Shown here piece by piece: positions 30,598 to 40,790 of a DNA stretch of 64,000 nt. A program made the position numbers and the translations under genes. Each line of letters begins with the position of its first letter. Positions within the stretch are counted from its first letter, which is position 1. The notes below the pieces were generated by a model, which saw only the letters and a program-made list of their open reading frames with translations, did no database searches and was not told the DNA's origin. The DNA is taken from NCBI RefSeq assembly GCF_003697845.1, contig NZ_RDQE01000001.1, forward strand, positions 62,001-126,000. Direction: 5' to 3'. Source of the stretch: Halobellus captivus (GTDB lineage Archaea; Halobacteriota; Halobacteria; Halobacteriales; Haloferacaceae).

Positions 30598-32034
30598 TCA
30601 GCGCTTTCCGAGCGCCTCCTCGAAGACCCGCCGTGCGCGCTCGTATGCCGCGTCGCGGTCGACGATCGGGTCGGGGTAGTCGGGAGCCAACTCCTCGCGC
30701 TCCGCGGCCGAAAGCGTCGGCCAGTCGACGACCGCCCCGGCCGGCACGTCCCGTAGCTCGGGAACGTATTCGCGGACGAACGTCCCGTCCGGGTCGTACT
30801 TGGCGGCCTGGCTCACCGGATCGAAGATCCGCACGTCGACGCTATCGGTGCCGGTCGAGGCGATCCACTGCCACATGCCGTGGTTCGACGCGTGGTCGCC
30901 GTCGACCAGCCGCTGCATGAACCAGCGCGCCCCGCGCCGCCAGTCGACGAGGAGGTGTTTGGTGAGGAAGCTCGCGACCACCTGTCTGGGGCGGTTGTGG
31001 ACGTACCCCTCCGCCTCCAGTTGGCGCATCCCGGCGTCGACCAGCGGATATCCCGTCTCGCCGCGTTTCCACGCCTCGAACCCCTCGTCGTCCTCGCGCC
31101 ACGCGATGGGGTTCGGGAACCATACGTAGTTCGCCTCCGCCAGGTCGGCGTTGTAGTACAACAGGTGGTACATCTCCTCGCGCCAGGCGAGCTCGTCCCG
31201 ATACTTCTCGACGTTTCGGCGGGCGGCGTCGTCGCTCGCGGCGTCGCGAGCTCCGGTCGCGGCCGCCCACACCTCCCGGATCCCGATCGCACCCGCCGCG
31301 AGATACGGCGACAGCCGGGAGACGGCGTGGGTCGGTGCCTCGACCGCCCGCGCGAGATCGTCGCGGGTGTCGGCGTAGGTGTCGATCCCGTCCGCGAGGA
31401 AGTCGTCGAGCCGCTTGCGGGCGCCCCGATAGCCGGCCGGCGGGAGGTCGACGTCGGTTCGGAGGGGATCGGTATCGACGAAGGCGTCACCGGTAACTTC
31501 CCGGACGGACCGCTCGCCCCCCACGTCCGCCAGCGTCCCCGGTTTCGGCTCCGGATACGGGTCCGGTTTCGGGACCGCCCGCCAGTCGTCGTGAAACCCT
31601 CCGTGGTTCGGATACGACTCGGCCAGCCGTCCGGGATCGACCAACACGAGGTCGGTCCGCGTCACCGTCCCGACGCCGGCGTCCGCGAGTCTCGACTCGA
31701 CCGCACGCGCGCGCTCCCGCCGCGCCGGACGGTAGTGCTCGTTGTAGGTGACCCGGTCGGCGTCGTGCTCCGCCGCGAGATCCGAAACCACCGACGCGGG
31801 GTCGCCCGCGCGGACGACGAGGTCGCTCCCGAGTTCGCGGTAGCGACGCCGGAGGCGCTCCACGTTCCGGAGGAGGAACGCCCGCCGTCGTGCGCCCATC
31901 GTTCCCAGGAGTTCCGTGTCGTACACGAAGACGGGGACGATCGTCTCGTCGCGATCGCCTGCGGTCGCCGCGGCTGCCGCCAGCCCTACGTTGTCGCGGA
32001 GCCGCGGGTCCCGCCGGTGCCAGAACAGGTCCAT
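30598..32034 (-). CDS. phr: Deoxyribodipyrimidine photolyase
   Basis: 478 residues of the cryptochrome/photolyase family. The N-terminal antenna domain (1-130) starts MDLFWHRRDPRLRDN. The FAD-binding helical domain includes ETGYPLVDAGMRQLEAEGY, HNRPRQVVASFLTKHLL, DWRRGARWFMQ and the conserved ASNHGMWQWIASTGTD with the FAD-contacting Asn/Asp and Trp. Length and motifs fit class I CPD photolyases: light-driven repair of cyclobutane dimers, expected in sun-exposed brines. The start MDLFWHRR is fixed by the family N-terminus. Confidence 0.92.
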   Translation of the reverse strand: MDLFWHRRDPRLRDNVGLAAAAATAGDRDETIVPVFVYDTELLGTMGARRRAFLLRNVERLRRRYRELGSDLVVRAGDPASVVSDLAAEHDADRVTYNEHYRPARRERARAVESRLADAGVGTVTRTDLVLVDPGRLAESYPNHGGFHDDWRAVPKPDPYPEPKPGTLADVGGERSVREVTGDAFVDTDPLRTDVDLPPAGYRGARKRLDDFLADGIDTYADTRDDLARAVEAPTHAVSRLSPYLAAGAIGIREVWAAATGARDAASDDAARRNVEKYRDELAWREEMYHLLYYNADLAEANYVWFPNPIAWREDDEGFEAWKRGETGYPLVDAGMRQLEAEGYVHNRPRQVVASFLTKHLLVDWRRGARWFMQRLVDGDHASNHGMWQWIASTGTDSVDVRIFDPVSQAAKYDPDGTFVREYVPELRDVPAGAVVDWPTLSAAEREELAPDYPDPIVDRDAAYERARRVFEEALGKR

Positions 32035-32128
32035 ACGGACGGTAGGGGGGCCCACGGATAGTGTCCTTCGTCGCCGGAGACCCGCCGGCTCCCCGAGATC
32101 GTCCCCCTGGGGGTGGGAGGACGACCGG

Positions 32129-35100
32129 TCAATCGTCGCCGGCGACGGTCGCGTTCGCCGACCCGGTCACCGCCTCGGCGACCTTCTCGATCGGGTGTGG
32201 CGGGGTCGACTCCCCGTCGCGGTCTCCGAGTTGCGAGCGACAGGACGCGCCCGGCGCGGTGGTCGTCTCCCCGGGGCTCTCCGCCACCTGGTCGAACAGG
32301 ACCCGGCCGATCGCCTTCGAGAGGTCGTAGTGCTCGGACTCGTAGCCGAACGAGCCGGCCATCCCGCAACACGAGGAGTCGAGCGGGTCCACCTCGTAGC
32401 CGGCGCGTCTGAGCACGCCCACCGCGTGGTGGTCCTTGTCCGTCGCCTTCTGGTTACAGTGGCCGTGATAGGTCAGCGACTCGGCCGGCGCGTCGAACGC
32501 CAACCGATCGTCGACCCGGCCGGCGTCGAGGTACTCCAGGACGCCGTAGGCGGCCGCCGAGACCGCCCGGACGGCCTCGCCGTCGAGCAAGTCGAGGTAC
32601 TCGTCCTGGAACATCACCGCGTCGGAGGGTTCGACGAAGAGGACGGACGCCCCCTCCCGGACACGGGGGGCGAGCGCCGCGACGTTCGCCTCGGCGCGCT
32701 CGCGGGCGACGTCGAGAAAGCCGGTCGAGAAGGCGGCCCGCCCCGACGGCACGAGGTCGTCGGCGACCTCGACGCGCACCCCCGCCGCCTCCAACACCGC
32801 GACGGCGTCCTTCCCGGCGGCCGGGTAGCTGTAGTTCGTGTAGGTGTCCGGAAAGAGCACGACCGTGTCGGTCGCGTCCGCGGGGTCGACCGTCGAGCCG
32901 CCCCGCGAAGCGAACCACTCCTCGAAGCTCTCGGAGCGGAACGTCGGCAGCTCGCGATCGGGCGCGATCCCCGCGACGGCGTCCATGAGCCGTCGGCTCC
33001 CGGGGAGCTTCGTCGCCGCGTTCGACAGCGGCGCGAGCGCGCTCCCGATCGCCGAGAGGCGATCGATGTCGCGGAAGAGTCGCTCGCGGAGCCCGGCCCC
33101 CTCCGCCTCGTGGTGTTCGTGTTTCACCTCCGCCTTCAGTTTCGCGAGGTCGACGCCGGTCGGACAGTCGCTCTGACACCCCTTACACCCCACGCAGAGG
33201 TCGAGCACCTCCCCCTGGAAGCGGTCGGAATGGATCTCGTCGTCGTCGAGGTCGCCGCTGATCGCCGCCCGGAGCATGTTGGCGCGCCCCCGCGTCGTCT
33301 GGATCTCCTCGCCGGAGGCGCGATAGGTCGGACACATCACGCCCGAGTCGGTCTCCCGGCAGGTGCCACAGCCGTTACACAGCTCCACCAGGTGGGAGAA
33401 CCCGCCCTCGTCGTCGAAGTCCAGCGTCGTTTGCGGCTCGATCGACTGGTACTCGGCCCCGTAGCGGAGGTGTTCGCGCATGTCCGTGTCGGCGGCGGTC
33501 TCCGGATAGCCACGCTCGCTCGCGGTCTCGTCGTCGACGTAGACGACCTTCCCGGGGTTCAGCCGCCACTCGGGGTCGAACGTCGACTTGAGCTCCTGGA
33601 ACGCGCCCCAGAGCCGCTCGCCGTACATCTTCGGGTTGAACTCGGTGCGCGCGAGCCCGTCGCCGTGCTCGCCCGAGAACGCACCGTGGTGCTCCAACAC
33701 GAGGTCGGTGACGTCCTCCGAGATGGAGTGCATCCTCTCGATGCCCTCCTCCTCCTTCAGCGAGAGGATCGGCCGGATGTGGAGGGTGCCGCTCCCGGCG
33801 TGTGCGAAGTACGCCGCCGAGGTGTCGTGCGCGTCGAGCACGTCCTCGAACTCGCCGACGTACTCCGCGAGCTCCTCGGGCGGAACCGACGCGTCCTCGA
33901 TGAACGGGTACGGCTTCGGGTCGCCCTCCATGCTCATCAGGAGCGGGATGGCCGCCTTCCGCAGGTTCCAGAGATCCGCCTGGTCGCTCTCGGTGTACGC
34001 CTCGAGGACGTCGAAGGCGTCGCCCCCCTCGAGGAAGCGTGCGTTCGTGTCGGCGATCGCCGCCTCGAAGTCGTCGACCAGCTCGGAGTCCCACTCGAGC
34101 ATCAGCGCCGCCGCGGCGCGGTCGGGGATCGGTTCGGCGTACTCCGCGAACTGCGGGGAGCCGGCCGCGAGTCCGAACACCTCGTCGTCCATCAGCTCGA
34201 CCGCGCTCACCGGGAACCCGAGCGCCTCCGGAACGGCCCGCATCGCGGCCGTAAGCGAGTCGAAGGTGTACAGCGCCAGCGCGGTCTCCTCGGGGCGGGT
34301 GACGAGCGACACCTCCGCCTCGACGACGACGCCGAGGGTCCCCTCGGCGCCGACGAACAGCTTCGAGAGGTTGATTACCTCCTCGCCGGCGTCGTTCTCG
34401 TATATCACCTTGTGGAGGTTGTACCCCGAGACCGACCGCTTGAGCGTCGGATACCGCTCGTCGATCTCGGCCTCGTTCTCCTCGACGAGCCGGCGAACCG
34501 TCTCGTACAGTGCCGCCTCGCGCTCGCCTCCCTCCTCGCCAGCGACGATCGCCTCGTACTCCGGCGAGTCGAGGACGACCTCCCGGGTGTGGACGAGCGA
34601 ACCGTCCGCGAGCACCACCTTCAGCTCCTCGGTGTAGGCGTCGGTGATCCCGTACCGGACCGAGTGTGCTCCCGTGGAGTTGTTGCCGATCCCGCCGCCG
34701 ACCGTCGCTCGCGCCGAGGAGGCGGGATCGGGCGCGAACTTCAACCCGTCCTCGGCGAGGCGGTCGTCGAGGCGGTCCTGGACGACGCCCGGCTCGACCA
34801 CGGCACGGCGGTCGTCGGGGCGGACCTCGAGGATCCCGCCCATGTATCGGGAGAAGTCGAGCACGACACATCCCGGTCCGACCGTCTGGCCGGCGAGCGA
34901 GGAGCCCGCGCCGCGCGCGAGCACGGGGACGCCGTGGTCGGCGGCGACCCGCATCGTCTCGCGGACGTCCCCGACCGACCGCGGCGAGACGACGCCCGCG
35001 GGGCGCGCGCCGTAGATGCTGCCGTCGGTCGCGTACAGCACCTGTGCGTACTCGTCGAACTGGACCTCGCCGTCGACGCGCTCGCGGAGGGCCGACGCGA

Positions 35101-35197
35101 GCGCCCGGTAGGCGGGCACGTCCGGCCGGTCGTGGCCGAGCGCTGCCGCCGACGTGTCGAACGCGGATCCCTCCCCCTGCGCCGGATCGGTCGCCAT
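32129..35197 (-). CDS. dld: FAD-linked oxidase fused to Fe-S reductase (D-lactate/glycolate type)
   Basis: 1022 residues in three parts. First, an FAD-binding PCMH domain (about 45-270; GVPVLARGAGSSLAGQ, ATVGGGIGNNSTGAHS). Second, the GlcD-type C-terminal domain with HAGSGTLHIRP and SGEHGDGLARTEF. Third, from about 640 a GlcF-like part with two 4Fe-4S motifs (CNGCGTCRETDSGVMCP and CVGCKGCQSDCP) and two CCG domains (HGHCNQKAT, SSCCGMAGSFGY). Such fusions oxidise D-lactate, glycolate or a related 2-hydroxy acid and pass electrons to the membrane. In Haloferax a similar protein serves D-lactate. The first Fe-S motif has an eight-residue gap before its last Cys. Confidence 0.9.
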   Translation of the reverse strand: MATDPAQGEGSAFDTSAAALGHDRPDVPAYRALASALRERVDGEVQFDEYAQVLYATDGSIYGARPAGVVSPRSVGDVRETMRVAADHGVPVLARGAGSSLAGQTVGPGCVVLDFSRYMGGILEVRPDDRRAVVEPGVVQDRLDDRLAEDGLKFAPDPASSARATVGGGIGNNSTGAHSVRYGITDAYTEELKVVLADGSLVHTREVVLDSPEYEAIVAGEEGGEREAALYETVRRLVEENEAEIDERYPTLKRSVSGYNLHKVIYENDAGEEVINLSKLFVGAEGTLGVVVEAEVSLVTRPEETALALYTFDSLTAAMRAVPEALGFPVSAVELMDDEVFGLAAGSPQFAEYAEPIPDRAAAALMLEWDSELVDDFEAAIADTNARFLEGGDAFDVLEAYTESDQADLWNLRKAAIPLLMSMEGDPKPYPFIEDASVPPEELAEYVGEFEDVLDAHDTSAAYFAHAGSGTLHIRPILSLKEEEGIERMHSISEDVTDLVLEHHGAFSGEHGDGLARTEFNPKMYGERLWGAFQELKSTFDPEWRLNPGKVVYVDDETASERGYPETAADTDMREHLRYGAEYQSIEPQTTLDFDDEGGFSHLVELCNGCGTCRETDSGVMCPTYRASGEEIQTTRGRANMLRAAISGDLDDDEIHSDRFQGEVLDLCVGCKGCQSDCPTGVDLAKLKAEVKHEHHEAEGAGLRERLFRDIDRLSAIGSALAPLSNAATKLPGSRRLMDAVAGIAPDRELPTFRSESFEEWFASRGGSTVDPADATDTVVLFPDTYTNYSYPAAGKDAVAVLEAAGVRVEVADDLVPSGRAAFSTGFLDVARERAEANVAALAPRVREGASVLFVEPSDAVMFQDEYLDLLDGEAVRAVSAAAYGVLEYLDAGRVDDRLAFDAPAESLTYHGHCNQKATDKDHHAVGVLRRAGYEVDPLDSSCCGMAGSFGYESEHYDLSKAIGRVLFDQVAESPGETTTAPGASCRSQLGDRDGESTPPHPIEKVAEAVTGSANATVAGDD

Positions 35198-35222
35198 ACC
35201 CTACCTGGGCGTCGACCGACGA

Positions 35223-35230
35223 ATAAAACA
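35223..35230 (-). promoter_or_regulatory. TATA box of the FAD/Fe-S dehydrogenase gene
   Basis: GTTTTATT on the minus strand is centred about 29 nt upstream of the start at 35197. Confidence 0.55.
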
Positions 35231-35317
35231 TTCGTTCATGAGGGTTGTCGGCGACGCTGGAACCCCGGGATCCGTCCCTCGGCGGTCGTCGATCGCCGGA
35301 CGACCCGGGCGTCGGGC

Positions 35318-36214
35318 TTACCCCCGACGGACCGCGACCCCGGAGTAGCCGCAGCCGTCACACGAGAGCGTCTCGCGCGCGCCGAACGCGTACGTCGACA
35401 GCGGGGTCCCACAGCGCGGACAAGGGTCGCCGCCGGCGAGCGGCGGGGCGTACTCGACGTCCGCGACGACGACCCGGACGCCGATCTCGTCCTCGACGGA
35501 CTCGTCGACTGCGCCGCCCCAGATCACGTTCGCGTCCGCGTCGATCCGCTCGCGAACCGCCGCGATCGCGTCGGTCGCGGCGGCGATGCTAGTCTCCGGG
35601 TCGACCACCACGTCGACGAGCGCGGCGCTCGCGTCCGCGGGGTCGACGCCCTCCGGCAACCGATCGAACGCCTCGTCGACCGCGAGCGCGGGCGCGTCGC
35701 GGTCGGCGATCGAGGACCCGTCGGTTCCCGCCGTTCCGGTCCCCACCGCGGCGATGCCGATCGAGAGGGCGGTCCGGGCGTCGGCCAGGTCCAGGTTGAC
35801 GAAGCCGGGGCGTTGAACCGCCTCGAGGAACGTCCGGATCGCCTCCGCGGCGCCCCCCTCACCGGCGAGTAGCGTCGCGTCGACCCGTCGGCGTGCCGCC
35901 GCCAGTGACTCGGGAGCGACGCCCGACGGGGCGACTGCGACGATGAACGCGTCGAGCGCGCCGAGATCGTCGAGTGCGTCGAGCGCCCCAGGTGTCCGAC
36001 CCGCCTCAAGCGTCGGGCCCACGACGACCAGCACGGCGGCGACGTCGTCGCGGTCGGGATCATCGTCGTTCTCGGCGACGAGCTCCGCGATCGTCGCGAC
36101 GCGAGCCCCGGGAAACGCCCCGGCGGGAACGAGCGCGTCGCCGTCGACCCCGCAGACGACCACGGAGCCGTCGAGCGCGGCGGCCCGCCTCCCGAGTTCC
36201 TCGTCCGAGACCAT
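35318..36214 (-). CDS. FtsZ-derived pseudo-GTPase with C-terminal zinc ribbon
   Basis: 298 residues. Residues 58-96 align with the FtsZ T4 region, but GGGTGTG is replaced by GPTLEAGRT. Residues 134-148 (QRPGFVNLDLADART) match the T7 catalytic loop and keep both Asp. Residues 185-256 match the FtsZ C-terminal domain (GVDPADASAALVDV, DADANVIWGGAVDESVEDE). The N-terminus starts near FtsZ T3 (VVVCGVDGDAL), so the T1 GTP loop is missing. A zinc ribbon (CPRC 265-268, CDGC 285-288) is appended. It cannot bind GTP by itself in the usual way but could act on a partner FtsZ. Function unknown; divergent from a pilus-type ATPase gene. Confidence 0.75.
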   Translation of the reverse strand: MVSDEELGRRAAALDGSVVVCGVDGDALVPAGAFPGARVATIAELVAENDDDPDRDDVAAVLVVVGPTLEAGRTPGALDALDDLGALDAFIVAVAPSGVAPESLAAARRRVDATLLAGEGGAAEAIRTFLEAVQRPGFVNLDLADARTALSIGIAAVGTGTAGTDGSSIADRDAPALAVDEAFDRLPEGVDPADASAALVDVVVDPETSIAAATDAIAAVRERIDADANVIWGGAVDESVEDEIGVRVVVADVEYAPPLAGGDPCPRCGTPLSTYAFGARETLSCDGCGYSGVAVRRG

Positions 36215-36303: not shown

Positions 36304-38793
36304 ATGTCAGGAAAGGAGAATAGTTATGTCGGATCGTCGGACTCGAGTCGATCAGACGAGCGTAGAGACGTGACGAGTCCCACCCTGCGGATCGGCGGCG
36401 GCTCCGAGGACGACGACGCCTCGGTTCCGGCGCCGGTCCCGCCCGACGACCCCGAAGCCTGGTACGCCCCGGACGTCCGCGCGCAGTACGAGTCCGCGCC
36501 CGGCGTCGTCGCGACGATCCGCGAACGCGACGGCGGCCGGTTCGGCTACGACGTCCGCGAACCGCCCCTCTCGCCGGCCGACGAGCGCGCGCTCCGGACC
36601 GTCCGTGACCACTTCTCGGCGGTCCGCGGGCGTCGGCCGCTCACCCGCGCCGGCGCGGTCGAGCGCGCGGACGCGGGGTTCGAGCCGAAGTACGAGCGGG
36701 TGCTCGATCGCCTGCTCTCGGCGACCGCGGCCGCCCGCCGCCGGATCGACCACCACGCGCTGTGTGAGCTCCGGCTGTTCGGCGACCTCACGCCGGTCGC
36801 GCTCGACGGCCGGATCGAGGTCGCCGACGTCGGCGACGACCGCGAGCTCGTCGTCCACACGGACGCGTTCGCCCCGCTCGAGACGGGGATCGACGCCGAC
36901 GCCGAGTACGTCGAGCGCGTCGCCGGCGAGCGGCTCGCGCGGTACGCCGTCGAGTTCGCCGGCTACCCCGTGGACGTGGTGATCTACCGCGAGCGGCTGC
37001 TCGGCTCCGACGCCTTCGAGACCAAGTACGCCGCGCTCGAACCCGACCTCCTCCCCGGCGACGAGACGCTGATCCGCGACTGCGAGCGCCGGATCTGGGA
37101 GACCCCCGTGGATCGGCTGATAGACGACCGGACCGAGTTCGTCGCCGAGCACGCCCGTCGGTACCTCTCGCGCCGGCTCGCGGGCGGTTCCTCTCCACGA
37201 GGCTGGATCGCGACCGCCCGCGCTCGCGTCCGGCGCGCTCTCGCCGACCGGGACCTGGTCGCACCGAGCGTCGATCCGACGTACGCCGACGACCGACTCG
37301 ACGACCTCGTGTACTACGTGCTCCGCGACTTCGTCGGCGAGGGAGTCCTCACCGTCCCGATCCGTGACCCGCACCTGGAGGACGTCGAGGCCAACCGCGT
37401 CGGCGAGCGCGTGAAGGTCGTTCCCCGGCCCGCGGTGCTGTCGAGGGCGGCGAGCGGGAGTGACGACGGGGACGAGGAAGCCCCCCGCGGTGGCGAGGTC
37501 GGTGACGCGGCCGCGGACGACCGCCGCGGGCTCGATCCGCTCGCCGGGGGCGGTCGGATCCCGACGAACCTCGCGTTCACGGACGAGTCGCGGTTCGTCG
37601 ACGTCGTGACGCGGCTGGCGGCCCGCGACGGCGTGGAGCTGAACGCCTCGACGCCCTCCGCGAAGGTCAACCTCGACGTCCCCGACGTCCCGGAGACCGT
37701 CCGGTGTGCGGTCGCGCTGCCGGTCATCTCCGCTGACGGCCCACACGTCTCGATCCGGAAGCAGGCCGCCGACCCGCTGACGCCCGTCGACCTGATCGCC
37801 CGCGACGCGCTCTCGACGGAGCTCGTCACCCTGCTGTGGCTGTTGTACGAACACCGCGGCGTCGTCCTCTTCGCGGGACCGACGGGGGCGGGCAAGACGA
37901 CGCTAATGAACGCCCACATGCCCTTCATCCCCTTCGACGACCGCCCGATCTCCATCGACGAGGGCTCCCGCGAGGTGCGACTCCCCCACGAGACCGGCGT
38001 GGCGCTGACGACCCGCGATCACGAGAACGACTACAAGGCGGTGAGCATGGCGACGCTGATGACTGAGGCCAACTACCTGAACCCCGACGTCGAGGTGATA
38101 GCCGAGATCAACACGCCCGCCAGCTTCGAGACGTTCGCCGAGACGGTGAATACGGGCCACGGCGTCGTGGGCACCACGCACGCCGCGGACGTGGAGACGC
38201 TCGTCAACCGCGCGATAGAGCGCGGACTCCCACCGTACCTGCTCCGGGAGGTCGACCTCGTGGTGTTCCCGCGACAGGTCGGCGGGGACCGGTACGTCGC
38301 CCAGGCGGTCGAGCCGCTCTCGCCCGCCGAGTACGACGCGCTCGATCCGGCCGCGACCCGGAGCCGGACCGGCGACCCGAAACACGGCGGGGCCGGAGTC
38401 GTCGAGCGCGACGACACGGCCGTCCACTACAACACGGTCGCGTGGCGCGACCCCGCGGGCGGGTTCCGGATGGACGGCGCGCCGACCGCGGACGCCGCCG
38501 GCTCGTATTCCGACGGCGGCAGGCGGCTCCACGCGCTCGCGCGCCTCGCCGAGCGGACCGACCGCGACCTCGACGCGGTCGAAACCGAGTTCGCCGCCAA
38601 ACGCCGTTACGTGGAGTACCTCGTCCGCGACGGTCTCACGGACTTCGACGAGCTGTTCGAGTTCCTCGCCGACCTCCGGGCCGACGAGGCCGCGACCGTC
38701 GAACGCGCCGCGCGATCGATGCGACACGCGAGCGATCCCGGCGGGTCGGCCGAGGGGGACGACGGCGACGCCCGACCCGGAGGCGCGCCGTGA
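36304..38793 (+). CDS. Type IV pilus-like secretion ATPase (PilB/TadA family)
   Basis: 829 residues. An acidic N-terminus is followed by a long archaeal N-terminal region, then the GspE/VirB11-type ATPase core from about 440. It has SIRKQAADPLTPVDLI, Walker A GPTGAGKTT near residue 525, the Asp box SIDEGSREV, Walker B VEVIAEIN and the His box NTGHGVVGTTHA. A low-complexity acidic insertion (about 380-420) precedes the core. The last 60 residues contain the helical YVEYLVRDGLTDFDELFEFL. It powers assembly or secretion with the membrane protein encoded next, whose GTG start overlaps its stop. No pilin gene is adjacent. Confidence 0.88.
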   Translation: MSGKENSYVGSSDSSRSDERRDVTSPTLRIGGGSEDDDASVPAPVPPDDPEAWYAPDVRAQYESAPGVVATIRERDGGRFGYDVREPPLSPADERALRTVRDHFSAVRGRRPLTRAGAVERADAGFEPKYERVLDRLLSATAAARRRIDHHALCELRLFGDLTPVALDGRIEVADVGDDRELVVHTDAFAPLETGIDADAEYVERVAGERLARYAVEFAGYPVDVVIYRERLLGSDAFETKYAALEPDLLPGDETLIRDCERRIWETPVDRLIDDRTEFVAEHARRYLSRRLAGGSSPRGWIATARARVRRALADRDLVAPSVDPTYADDRLDDLVYYVLRDFVGEGVLTVPIRDPHLEDVEANRVGERVKVVPRPAVLSRAASGSDDGDEEAPRGGEVGDAAADDRRGLDPLAGGGRIPTNLAFTDESRFVDVVTRLAARDGVELNASTPSAKVNLDVPDVPETVRCAVALPVISADGPHVSIRKQAADPLTPVDLIARDALSTELVTLLWLLYEHRGVVLFAGPTGAGKTTLMNAHMPFIPFDDRPISIDEGSREVRLPHETGVALTTRDHENDYKAVSMATLMTEANYLNPDVEVIAEINTPASFETFAETVNTGHGVVGTTHAADVETLVNRAIERGLPPYLLREVDLVVFPRQVGGDRYVAQAVEPLSPAEYDALDPAATRSRTGDPKHGGAGVVERDDTAVHYNTVAWRDPAGGFRMDGAPTADAAGSYSDGGRRLHALARLAERTDRDLDAVETEFAAKRRYVEYLVRDGLTDFDELFEFLADLRADEAATVERAARSMRHASDPGGSAEGDDGDARPGGAP

Positions 38794-40790
38794 GCGGCGA
38801 CACGCGACGGTCCGCTCGCGTCGAACGGGAGACCCGAACCGGAGCCGGCGACGCGCGATCCTCCGGATCCGCCGGGCTCGAGGGATTCGCCGGATTCGAT
38901 CGGGTCCTCCACGCGCTGTTCGCCCGGCACGCCGACGACCGTCGCCACGACGTCGATAGACAGCGCTACCGCGGGGCGGACCCGTCGACGGACTTCGAGA
39001 CGTACCTCGCGCGGACGTACGCGCTCTCCTGGGTCGTGGGTCTCGCGGCGGCCATCCCGGTCGTTCTCCTCGCGAGCGCGGTCGCTCCCGAGGTCTCGAC
39101 CGCGCTCGCGGACGGCCTCGGTACGCGCGTGTCGTTCGCGGTTCCCACGCCACCCCCGGTCGCGCTCGCGGTCAGTCTGTCGGCGGTCGCGGGCCTCCTC
39201 GCCAAACGGGCGACGGTCCACGCCGGCGGGCTCTACCTCCGGTGGTTGGTCTCCGCGCGCCGGGCGCGGATCGAGCGGACGCTCCCCGGTGCGGTCCGAT
39301 ACCTCGACGCGCTCTCCTCGGGGAGCGACGACGCCCGGACGCTCGTGGCGAAGGTCGCCGAGAACGACGCCTACGGCGGCGCGTCCGTGTCGTTTCGGAA
39401 GGCCCTCAACGCCGCACGGCTCACGGGAAGTCTCGACGCCGGGCTCCGCCGCGTCGCCCGCGACACGCCCTCGCGGGACCTCCTCGCGCCGTTCCTCCTG
39501 AAGTTCCGTCAGCACGTCTCGGCGGGCGACGAGGCGCTCGCGGAGTTCCTCCGCACCGAGAGCCGCCTCCTGGCGCATCGACAGGAACACGCTCGGACGC
39601 GGGCCCGGCGGTACCTGAAGCCGATCGCGGAGCTGTTCGTGTTCGTGCTCGTGTTGCCCGCGCTGCTCGTCGTCGCCGTCACGGTGACGAGCGTGTTCGC
39701 CCCCGACCTCTCGCGGCTGGTCGACACGCCGGTCGGTACCGTCTCGCCGCGAGCGGTCGCCGTCTACGCGTCCGTCGGATTCCTGCTCGCGGTCGGGCTC
39801 GTCGGCATCGCCGCCACCGGCGCGCTCCGCCCCGTCGACTCGCGCACGAGTTACCGCCGTCCGGAGGGCCTCCGCGGAGTGCTCGCGTCCGCGCCGTCGA
39901 ACCCGGCCAGCGCGTCGATCGTCGCGGTCATCCCCGCGGCGACCGTGGCCGTGGCTCTCGCGTACGCCGGATACCCGCTCGTGAACGTCTCGCTTCTGGC
40001 GTACGTCGCGTTCGCGCTCCCGGTCGGGTCGGTCGCCGCCCGGCGCGGACGGATCGACGACGCCAAGGACCGCCGGATCGCCGACTTCGTCTACGCGGTC
40101 TCCGCGCACGCCTCGGTCGGCCGCCCGTTCCCGGAGGCCGTCGCGACCGCGGCTCGCGAGACCGACCTCGGCGTGTTGCGCGGCGACGTCGCCGACCTCG
40201 CGTTCAACCTCTCGCTGACGACCGCCACGGAGGGCGCACCCGACGCGGACGACGCCGACCCGACCGTCGCCGCTCGTGACGCTTCCGCCGCCGGTAGCGA
40301 CGTGCGCGTCGTGGCGCTCGACCGGTTCGTCGACCGCGTCGGGACGCCCCTCGCCGTCCGGACGATCGGACTGGTCGCCGGGGCGTTGAACGCCGGGAGC
40401 ACCGTCGACGAGGTGTTCGAGACGCTACAGGCCGAGGTCGACCGACTGACCCACGAGAAGCGCGCGCTCCGCGAGGCGATGCGCCGGTACGTCGTGATCG
40501 GGTGGGTCGCGGCCCTGTCGGTCGGCGCCGCCGTCGTCGCGATCAACGCCGGCGTGATGCGGACGGACCGTCTGCTCGCGCTCGCTGCCGCGCTCGACGC
40601 GCCGTTCGATCCGGAGGTCGTCCACCCCGAACTGGAGCGGTTCCGCCTCTACGTGGTCGCGCAGGCGACGATGCTCGCGTCGGGCTGGTTCGCGGGGGCC
40701 GCCGCGCGCGGCAGGTACGGGGCGCTCCTGCACTCCGGGGTGCTGGTGGCAGCCTGTTACGTCGGCTTCGTCGCCGTCGGACAGATCTGA
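38790..40790 (+). CDS. Type IV pilus-like membrane platform (TadC/PilC, T2SSF)
   Basis: 666 residues from GTG 38790, which overlaps the ATPase stop (GTGA). It has about eight helices and two T2SSF (PF00482) modules: one near 165-290 (RTLPGAVRYLDALSSGSD-type start, SLDAGLRRVARDTPSRDLL) and one near 420-570 (RIADFVYAVSAHASVGRPF, GTPLAVRTIGLVAGALNAGS). Residues 1-60 are a charged cytoplasmic tail. It is the inner-membrane platform for the cognate ATPase. The pair resembles haloarchaeal PilB-PilC modules, but pilins, if any, are encoded elsewhere. Confidence 0.87.
   Translation: MSGDTRRSARVERETRTGAGDARSSGSAGLEGFAGFDRVLHALFARHADDRRHDVDRQRYRGADPSTDFETYLARTYALSWVVGLAAAIPVVLLASAVAPEVSTALADGLGTRVSFAVPTPPPVALAVSLSAVAGLLAKRATVHAGGLYLRWLVSARRARIERTLPGAVRYLDALSSGSDDARTLVAKVAENDAYGGASVSFRKALNAARLTGSLDAGLRRVARDTPSRDLLAPFLLKFRQHVSAGDEALAEFLRTESRLLAHRQEHARTRARRYLKPIAELFVFVLVLPALLVVAVTVTSVFAPDLSRLVDTPVGTVSPRAVAVYASVGFLLAVGLVGIAATGALRPVDSRTSYRRPEGLRGVLASAPSNPASASIVAVIPAATVAVALAYAGYPLVNVSLLAYVAFALPVGSVAARRGRIDDAKDRRIADFVYAVSAHASVGRPFPEAVATAARETDLGVLRGDVADLAFNLSLTTATEGAPDADDADPTVAARDASAAGSDVRVVALDRFVDRVGTPLAVRTIGLVAGALNAGSTVDEVFETLQAEVDRLTHEKRALREAMRRYVVIGWVAALSVGAAVVAINAGVMRTDRLLALAAALDAPFDPEVVHPELERFRLYVVAQATMLASGWFAGAAARGRYGALLHSGVLVAACYVGFVAVGQI

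Follow-up and report, generated by a model that had tools for sequence, protein, structure and literature searches.

A haloarchaeal FtsZ relative that has lost its GTP site, keeps its T7 loop and carries a zinc ribbon

The gene and its domains

What can an FtsZ relative still do when its GTP-binding loops are lost and its catalytic T7 loop is intact? The question is raised by a gene in a 64,000-nucleotide stretch of haloarchaeal DNA, referred to here as the window. Its minus strand contains an open reading frame at 35318–36214, running from an ATG at 36214 to a stop codon at 35318–35320, which encodes a protein of 298 residues (P0001). The frame is a real gene, with coding statistics typical of haloarchaea (GC by codon position of 0.80/0.54/0.89 and a pI of 4.05 for the product) and with domain matches. 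An assembly or frame artefact is ruled out, as the identical architecture recurs in 28 sequences. On the plus strand, a 1318-residue open frame at 31916–35872 lies antisense to real genes and has an arginine-rich translation; it is most likely a high-GC artefact and no gene.

The C-terminal FtsZ domain, predicted from the sequence to be well kept, matches Pfam family PF12327 (FtsZ_C) over residues 153–253 (35456–35758, minus strand) with an E-value of 3.4e-10 and a score of 40.5 bits, above the curated cut-off of 27. PF00091 (Tubulin/FtsZ GTPase) does not match the 298-residue protein, and a genome-wide PF00091 search also missed the gene. The TIGR00065 FtsZ equivalog profile scores 55.6 bits, far below its cut-off of 295.2, and matches only from residue 124 on. 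The best sequence matches in the PDB are FtsZs. Profile alignment (hhalign) with FtsZ1 of the same genome covers residues 3–256 at an E-value of 2.8e-26, compared with 2.1e-13 for FtsZ2, so that FtsZ1 is the closer of the two.

AlphaFold2 models were obtained for the window protein (alignment of 18 family members, pLDDT 83.6) and for a distant family member (23 sequences, pLDDT 88.5). Superposition on Methanocaldococcus jannaschii FtsZ (Protein Data Bank code 2vap) gives a Z-score of 20.7 and an rmsd of 3.5 Å over 237 residues for the window protein, and 22.9 and 4.0 Å over 243 residues for the distant member. Both models match the solved FtsZ along the entire chain as far as the ribbon, which places the protein in the FtsZ/tubulin superfamily by its fold over both domains. 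In the distant member the elements appear, with names assigned by alignment, in the order S1-H1-S4-S5-H5-S6-H7-T7-H8-S7-H9-S8-H10-S9-S10-ribbon, which reads as a minimal FtsZ. A different fold for the C-terminal half, the outcome that the original prediction had named as fatal to it, is excluded by the FtsZ_C match and the fold searches, which return FtsZ. In a viral structure library, only distant phage FtsZ-like proteins were matched.

The GTP-binding loops T2–T3, T4 and T6–H6 are lost or collapsed, and helix H7 is shortened. The gaps in the alignment with FtsZ1 fall in T2/H2/T3 and in T6/H6. Strand S4 and the lost T4 loop occupy residues 59–74 (AAVLVVVGPTLEAGRT; 35993–36040, minus strand), where GPTLEAGRT at residues 66–74 stands at the position of the FtsZ motif GGGTGTG, as had been read from the sequence. 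Together with the unmatched GTPase profile and the FtsZ fold, this bears out the predicted loss of the GTP site. The N terminus is less reduced than was thought: it had been described as starting near T3, with T1 gone, whereas the alignment opens at residue 3, with an N-terminal stretch (SDEELGRRAAALDGSVVVCGVDG) matching the start of FtsZ1, and residues 1–28 align with the FtsZ1 N terminus through S1 and T1. Strand S1 (residues 18–22 in the model) and a T1 loop that is degenerate yet present lie at residues 17–28 (SVVVCGVDGDAL; 36131–36166, minus strand).

The FtsZ linker and conserved tail peptide are absent. In place of the tail there is a zinc ribbon, residues 262–290 (35345–35431, minus strand), which starts about 10 residues past the last strand. 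It contains two CxxC pairs at ribbon spacing, CPRC at 265–268 and CDGC at 285–288, and PF06827 matches residues 262–288 with an E-value of 3.5e-5 and 24.0 bits, above the cut-off of 21.3. Eight ribbon positions are invariant in the 28 members (Cys-265, Pro-266, Arg-267, Cys-268, Tyr-275, Cys-285, Cys-288 and Gly-289), so the appended ribbon noticed in the sequence is real by both profile and conservation, and its cysteines are as fixed in the family as T7. Elsewhere in the same genome (L007:1500–1690), a small protein of about 63 residues has a zinc ribbon that shares 50% identity with the ribbon of the window protein. This small protein is a possible source of the appended ribbon.

By descent, then, the protein is a member of the FtsZ/tubulin superfamily. 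It is not an FtsZ proper, having no GTPase domain, a score under the equivalog cut-off and no tail, and it does not qualify as a CetZ either, which would need a GTPase domain with GGGTGSG.

Family, distribution and descent

A profile search across haloarchaea, which had been suggested as a check, identified a family and not a lone decayed copy. The searches recovered 28 intact members, from six or more haloarchaeal genera and with identities to the window protein down to about 32%, and at E ≤ 1e-40 members are found in 27 of 391 genomes of the class, in six genera. In the first sample, 11 of the 35 genomes read as Halorubrum (the genus of the window, going by the record titles of L038–L042) contain an intact member. 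One more of these genomes contains a broken copy (L023/L100, G205:C51), which is N-terminally truncated to residues 104–297, is interrupted by in-frame stop codons and is flanked by GlcD-like and PilB genes, as the window gene is. This copy is a loss in progress. A further member comes from a Haloarculaceae MAG (L043). Among 393 genomes from the phylum, no member was seen outside Halobacteria: the remaining matches listed resemble ordinary FtsZs and stop short of the ribbon. Carriage by viruses or plasmids was rejected, as no relative was found in viral contigs or in plasmids, and a PADLOC search gave no match, so a reading as a defence-system protein was rejected as well.

In a tree with 28 FtsZs, the members form one side of a single branch with support of 100/99 and long branches. 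We infer descent from FtsZ1 on the basis of the profile E-values given above, a point that the tree itself leaves unsettled; judged by sequence, the family is a fast-evolving clade nearest FtsZ1. The most divergent members (L126–L128, genus code g27) are without the N-terminal helix sequence and have extra residues between the last FtsZ strand and the ribbon. Their T7 loop still reads NLDxAD.

Conserved residues and selective constraint

The T7 loop was predicted to be intact, and it is. It reads NLDLAD at residues 140–145 (35780–35797, minus strand), fits the FtsZ pattern NxDxxD, and its Asn and two Asp residues are invariant in the 28 members. Strand S9 contributes the motif IWG at residues 231–233 (35516–35524, minus strand), which is invariant in both the family and the 28 FtsZs. 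Apart from the ribbon residues, the positions invariant in all members are Val-20; Asn-140, Asp-142, Asp-145 and Thr-148; and Ile-231, Trp-232 and Gly-233, to which the start methionine can be added if first codons are read as Met. The most conserved nine-residue windows of the family alignment are those of T7, the ribbon and S9. T4 is absent in every member; orthologues that retain GGGTGTG, which by the original prediction would have marked this copy as a decayed paralogue, were not found. T1 reads GxGxxG in several distant members and is eroded in Halorubrum.

The two halves of the protein differ in what they keep of FtsZ. Of the columns that are fixed in the 28 FtsZs, 67 lie before T7; the family retains 20% of these on average, and a single one in every member. 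From T7 on there are 36 such columns, of which it retains 48%, six of them in every member. These six are the N, D and D of T7 and the I, W and G of S9, and both T7 and S9 are elements of the lower contact face of the FtsZ filament. The probability that all six fall by chance in T7, S9 or H10-loop columns is about 0.0015; the set of columns was chosen after the cited papers, and adjacent columns are not independent of one another. On this contact face, the H10 loop (GGxD) is poorly kept, at 17–43%, and the loss of its glycines and Asp argues against a complete copy of that face.

In Staphylococcus aureus FtsZ, residues Asn-208, Asp-210 and Asp-213 of the upper T7 loop are needed for assembly or hydrolysis; they hold the catalytic water, and waters join the nucleotide to T7 and S9 (PMC8936486). 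FtsZs with a replaced T7 or with D210N were crystallised (3wgk, 3wgl and 7oja, among the structure-search matches), which indicates that T7 is dispensable for folding.

The gene is under purifying but loose selection. Its pN/pS is 0.53, compared with 0.22–0.26 for two neighbouring genes in the same genomes, so it evolves at about twice their rate; pN/pS is below 1 in all regions of the gene and lowest in the ribbon. Fast evolution, patchy presence and the one decayed Halorubrum copy indicate that the gene is dispensable.

Proposed function and alternatives

The original prediction suggested that such a protein could add to an FtsZ or CetZ filament, cap it or stimulate GTP hydrolysis. The window protein has a dismantled nucleotide-binding face (T1–T6) and has kept its opposite face, with the catalytic T7 and S9. 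GTP binding in the manner of FtsZ is therefore not expected, and no further subunit should be accepted at the dismantled face. The protein may dock, T7 face first, on an FtsZ1 subunit whose nucleotide face is exposed, which would complete the active site of that neighbour and end the filament. A T7 face without a nucleotide face could enter a filament only by meeting an exposed nucleotide face. Filaments have been argued to grow at the T7-exposing end (PMC8936486), which would place a one-faced protein on free subunits or at the opposite end, where filaments shrink. The outcome would be either capping of the top (nucleotide-exposing, shrinking) end or the triggering of GTP hydrolysis in free subunits. 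As the T7 acids are intact, hydrolysis is predicted to be triggered there, and not blocking alone. FtsZ1 is most likely the partner, judging by descent; FtsZ2 or CetZ would be less likely.

The membrane tether of FtsZ in archaea runs through SepF. Loss of linker and tail would remove this usual tether, and the ribbon that replaces them may offer another attachment, bringing in a partner or limiting where the protein acts. Docking of the T7 face on a nucleotide face, in the role of an end cap or a GTPase trigger, gains from the fact that the retained invariant residues belong to the lower contact face, and we consider it about evenly balanced between true and false. The poorly kept H10 loop, the fast evolution and patchy presence of the gene, and its neighbourhood, in which division genes do not recur, count against it. 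The fuller proposal, in which a GTP-less subunit with only a T7 face acts at the nucleotide-exposing end of archaeal division (or CetZ) filaments, ending or firing them and linking that end to a zinc-ribbon partner, is tentative, and we lean slightly against it.

The haloarchaeal cytoplasm is rich in K+, and this bears on a rather unlikely alternative in which the FtsZ scaffold was repurposed and makes no contact with FtsZ. The remnant would carry the ribbon, and T7 and S9 would serve a function of its own, for instance by holding a cation, forming a self-dimer or binding a new partner. T7 of FtsZ does hold a K+ ion (PMC8936486), the ribbon is as invariant as T7, the H10 loop of the contact face is poorly kept and there is no link to division genes, all of which would fit. 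However, every FtsZ residue that is invariantly kept from T7 on belongs to the intersubunit contact, and a purely structural need for them is unlikely given that T7-altered FtsZs fold.

Alternatively, the protein could be a sequestering inhibitor that binds free GTP-loaded FtsZ by its nucleotide face, triggers hydrolysis and lowers the pool. This would resemble SulA or MciZ, except that the protein would work by mimicry and use the opposite face. It draws on the same sequence evidence as the end cap and trigger, and the patchy spread fits an accessory regulator; that evidence equally describes end capping, and no toxin-like or inducible context was seen, so we regard it as improbable. A decaying FtsZ paralogue without function, to which fast evolution, patchy presence and one pseudogene might point, is largely refuted and very improbable: 28 members are intact and spread over several genera, their T7 and zinc sites are invariant, and pN/pS is below 1 in all regions, with its minimum in the ribbon.

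Genomic neighbourhood

By locus comparison, the gene is flanked by a divergent pilus or secretion pair at 36304–40790 on the plus strand, consisting of a PilB-type secretion/pilus ATPase (36304–38793) and a PilC-type membrane protein (38790–40790). Downstream on the minus strand lies an FAD-linked oxidase/Fe-S protein resembling GlcD (32129–35197). A PilB-type gene adjoins the family member in one Halorubrum clade and in L043, and is absent around members in other kinds of neighbourhood. A functional link to PilB/PilC was accordingly treated as uninformative. In the compared loci, division genes share no conserved neighbourhood with family members.

Relation to known FtsZ and tubulin proteins

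Archaeal FtsZ1 shares with the window protein whole-length homology, the NxDxxD T7 loop, the C-terminal domain, the N-terminal helix and S1. It differs in having the T2–T4 and T6 GTP loops, a linker and tail, and a longer H7, and in having no ribbon. CetZ is likewise a haloarchaeal protein of the tubulin superfamily, and cetZ2 is also found beside pilB2/C2 in pili-associated regions (PMC9856176). The genome of the window encodes FtsZ1 and FtsZ2 of the regular kind alongside several CetZ-like proteins; the latter keep GGGTGSG, whereas the window protein has no GTP site and a T7 loop of the FtsZ type.

MciZ, SulA and engineered FtsZ interface mutants resemble the proposed subunit in that they occupy a single face of a subunit or filament end. 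For MciZ this is the bottom (T7) face, which it binds and caps (PMC8936486), whereas here a natural protein of FtsZ fold would itself offer the T7 face and meet the opposite end. Within the tubulin superfamily, capping or template subunits of the gamma-tubulin type are likewise specialised for one end of the filament. Gamma-tubulin binds GTP, in contrast to the window family, which has lost the site.

To our knowledge, this would be the first dedicated end subunit in prokaryotes built from FtsZ itself, and beyond SepF and the CdrS regulator we know of almost nothing on how archaeal Z-ring filaments end, are oriented or are regulated. With one FtsZ contact face kept and the other discarded, such a natural protein offers a ready means of probing filament polarity and the importance of each end. 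Binding would show that FtsZ, like tubulin, has produced a specialised end subunit. Should it not bind, a T7 triad that stays fixed while GTP binding is lost would still mean that T7 can have a use beyond hydrolysis in a self-polymer.

A search of openly accessible papers returned no FtsZ with a zinc ribbon or finger from haloarchaea or Halorubrum, nor did the family papers that were checked describe one. A CetZ survey mentions unspecified "non-canonical" proteins. So far as found in the searched literature, this haloarchaeal FtsZ-family branch with a zinc ribbon has no earlier description. The non-canonical archaeal FtsZ relatives FtsZl1 and FtsZl2 (Makarova and Koonin 2010, PMC2875224) are akin to the family, but in FtsZl1 the GTP-binding part is retained and no FtsZ C-terminal half can be recognised, the reverse of the window protein. 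An architecture resembling that of FtsZl1 (Makarova and Koonin 2010) is seen in another protein, L135 (G000:C2, minus strand, at least 736 residues), in which an FtsZ-like part with GGGSGSG is followed by a long, charged and probably coiled-coil part.
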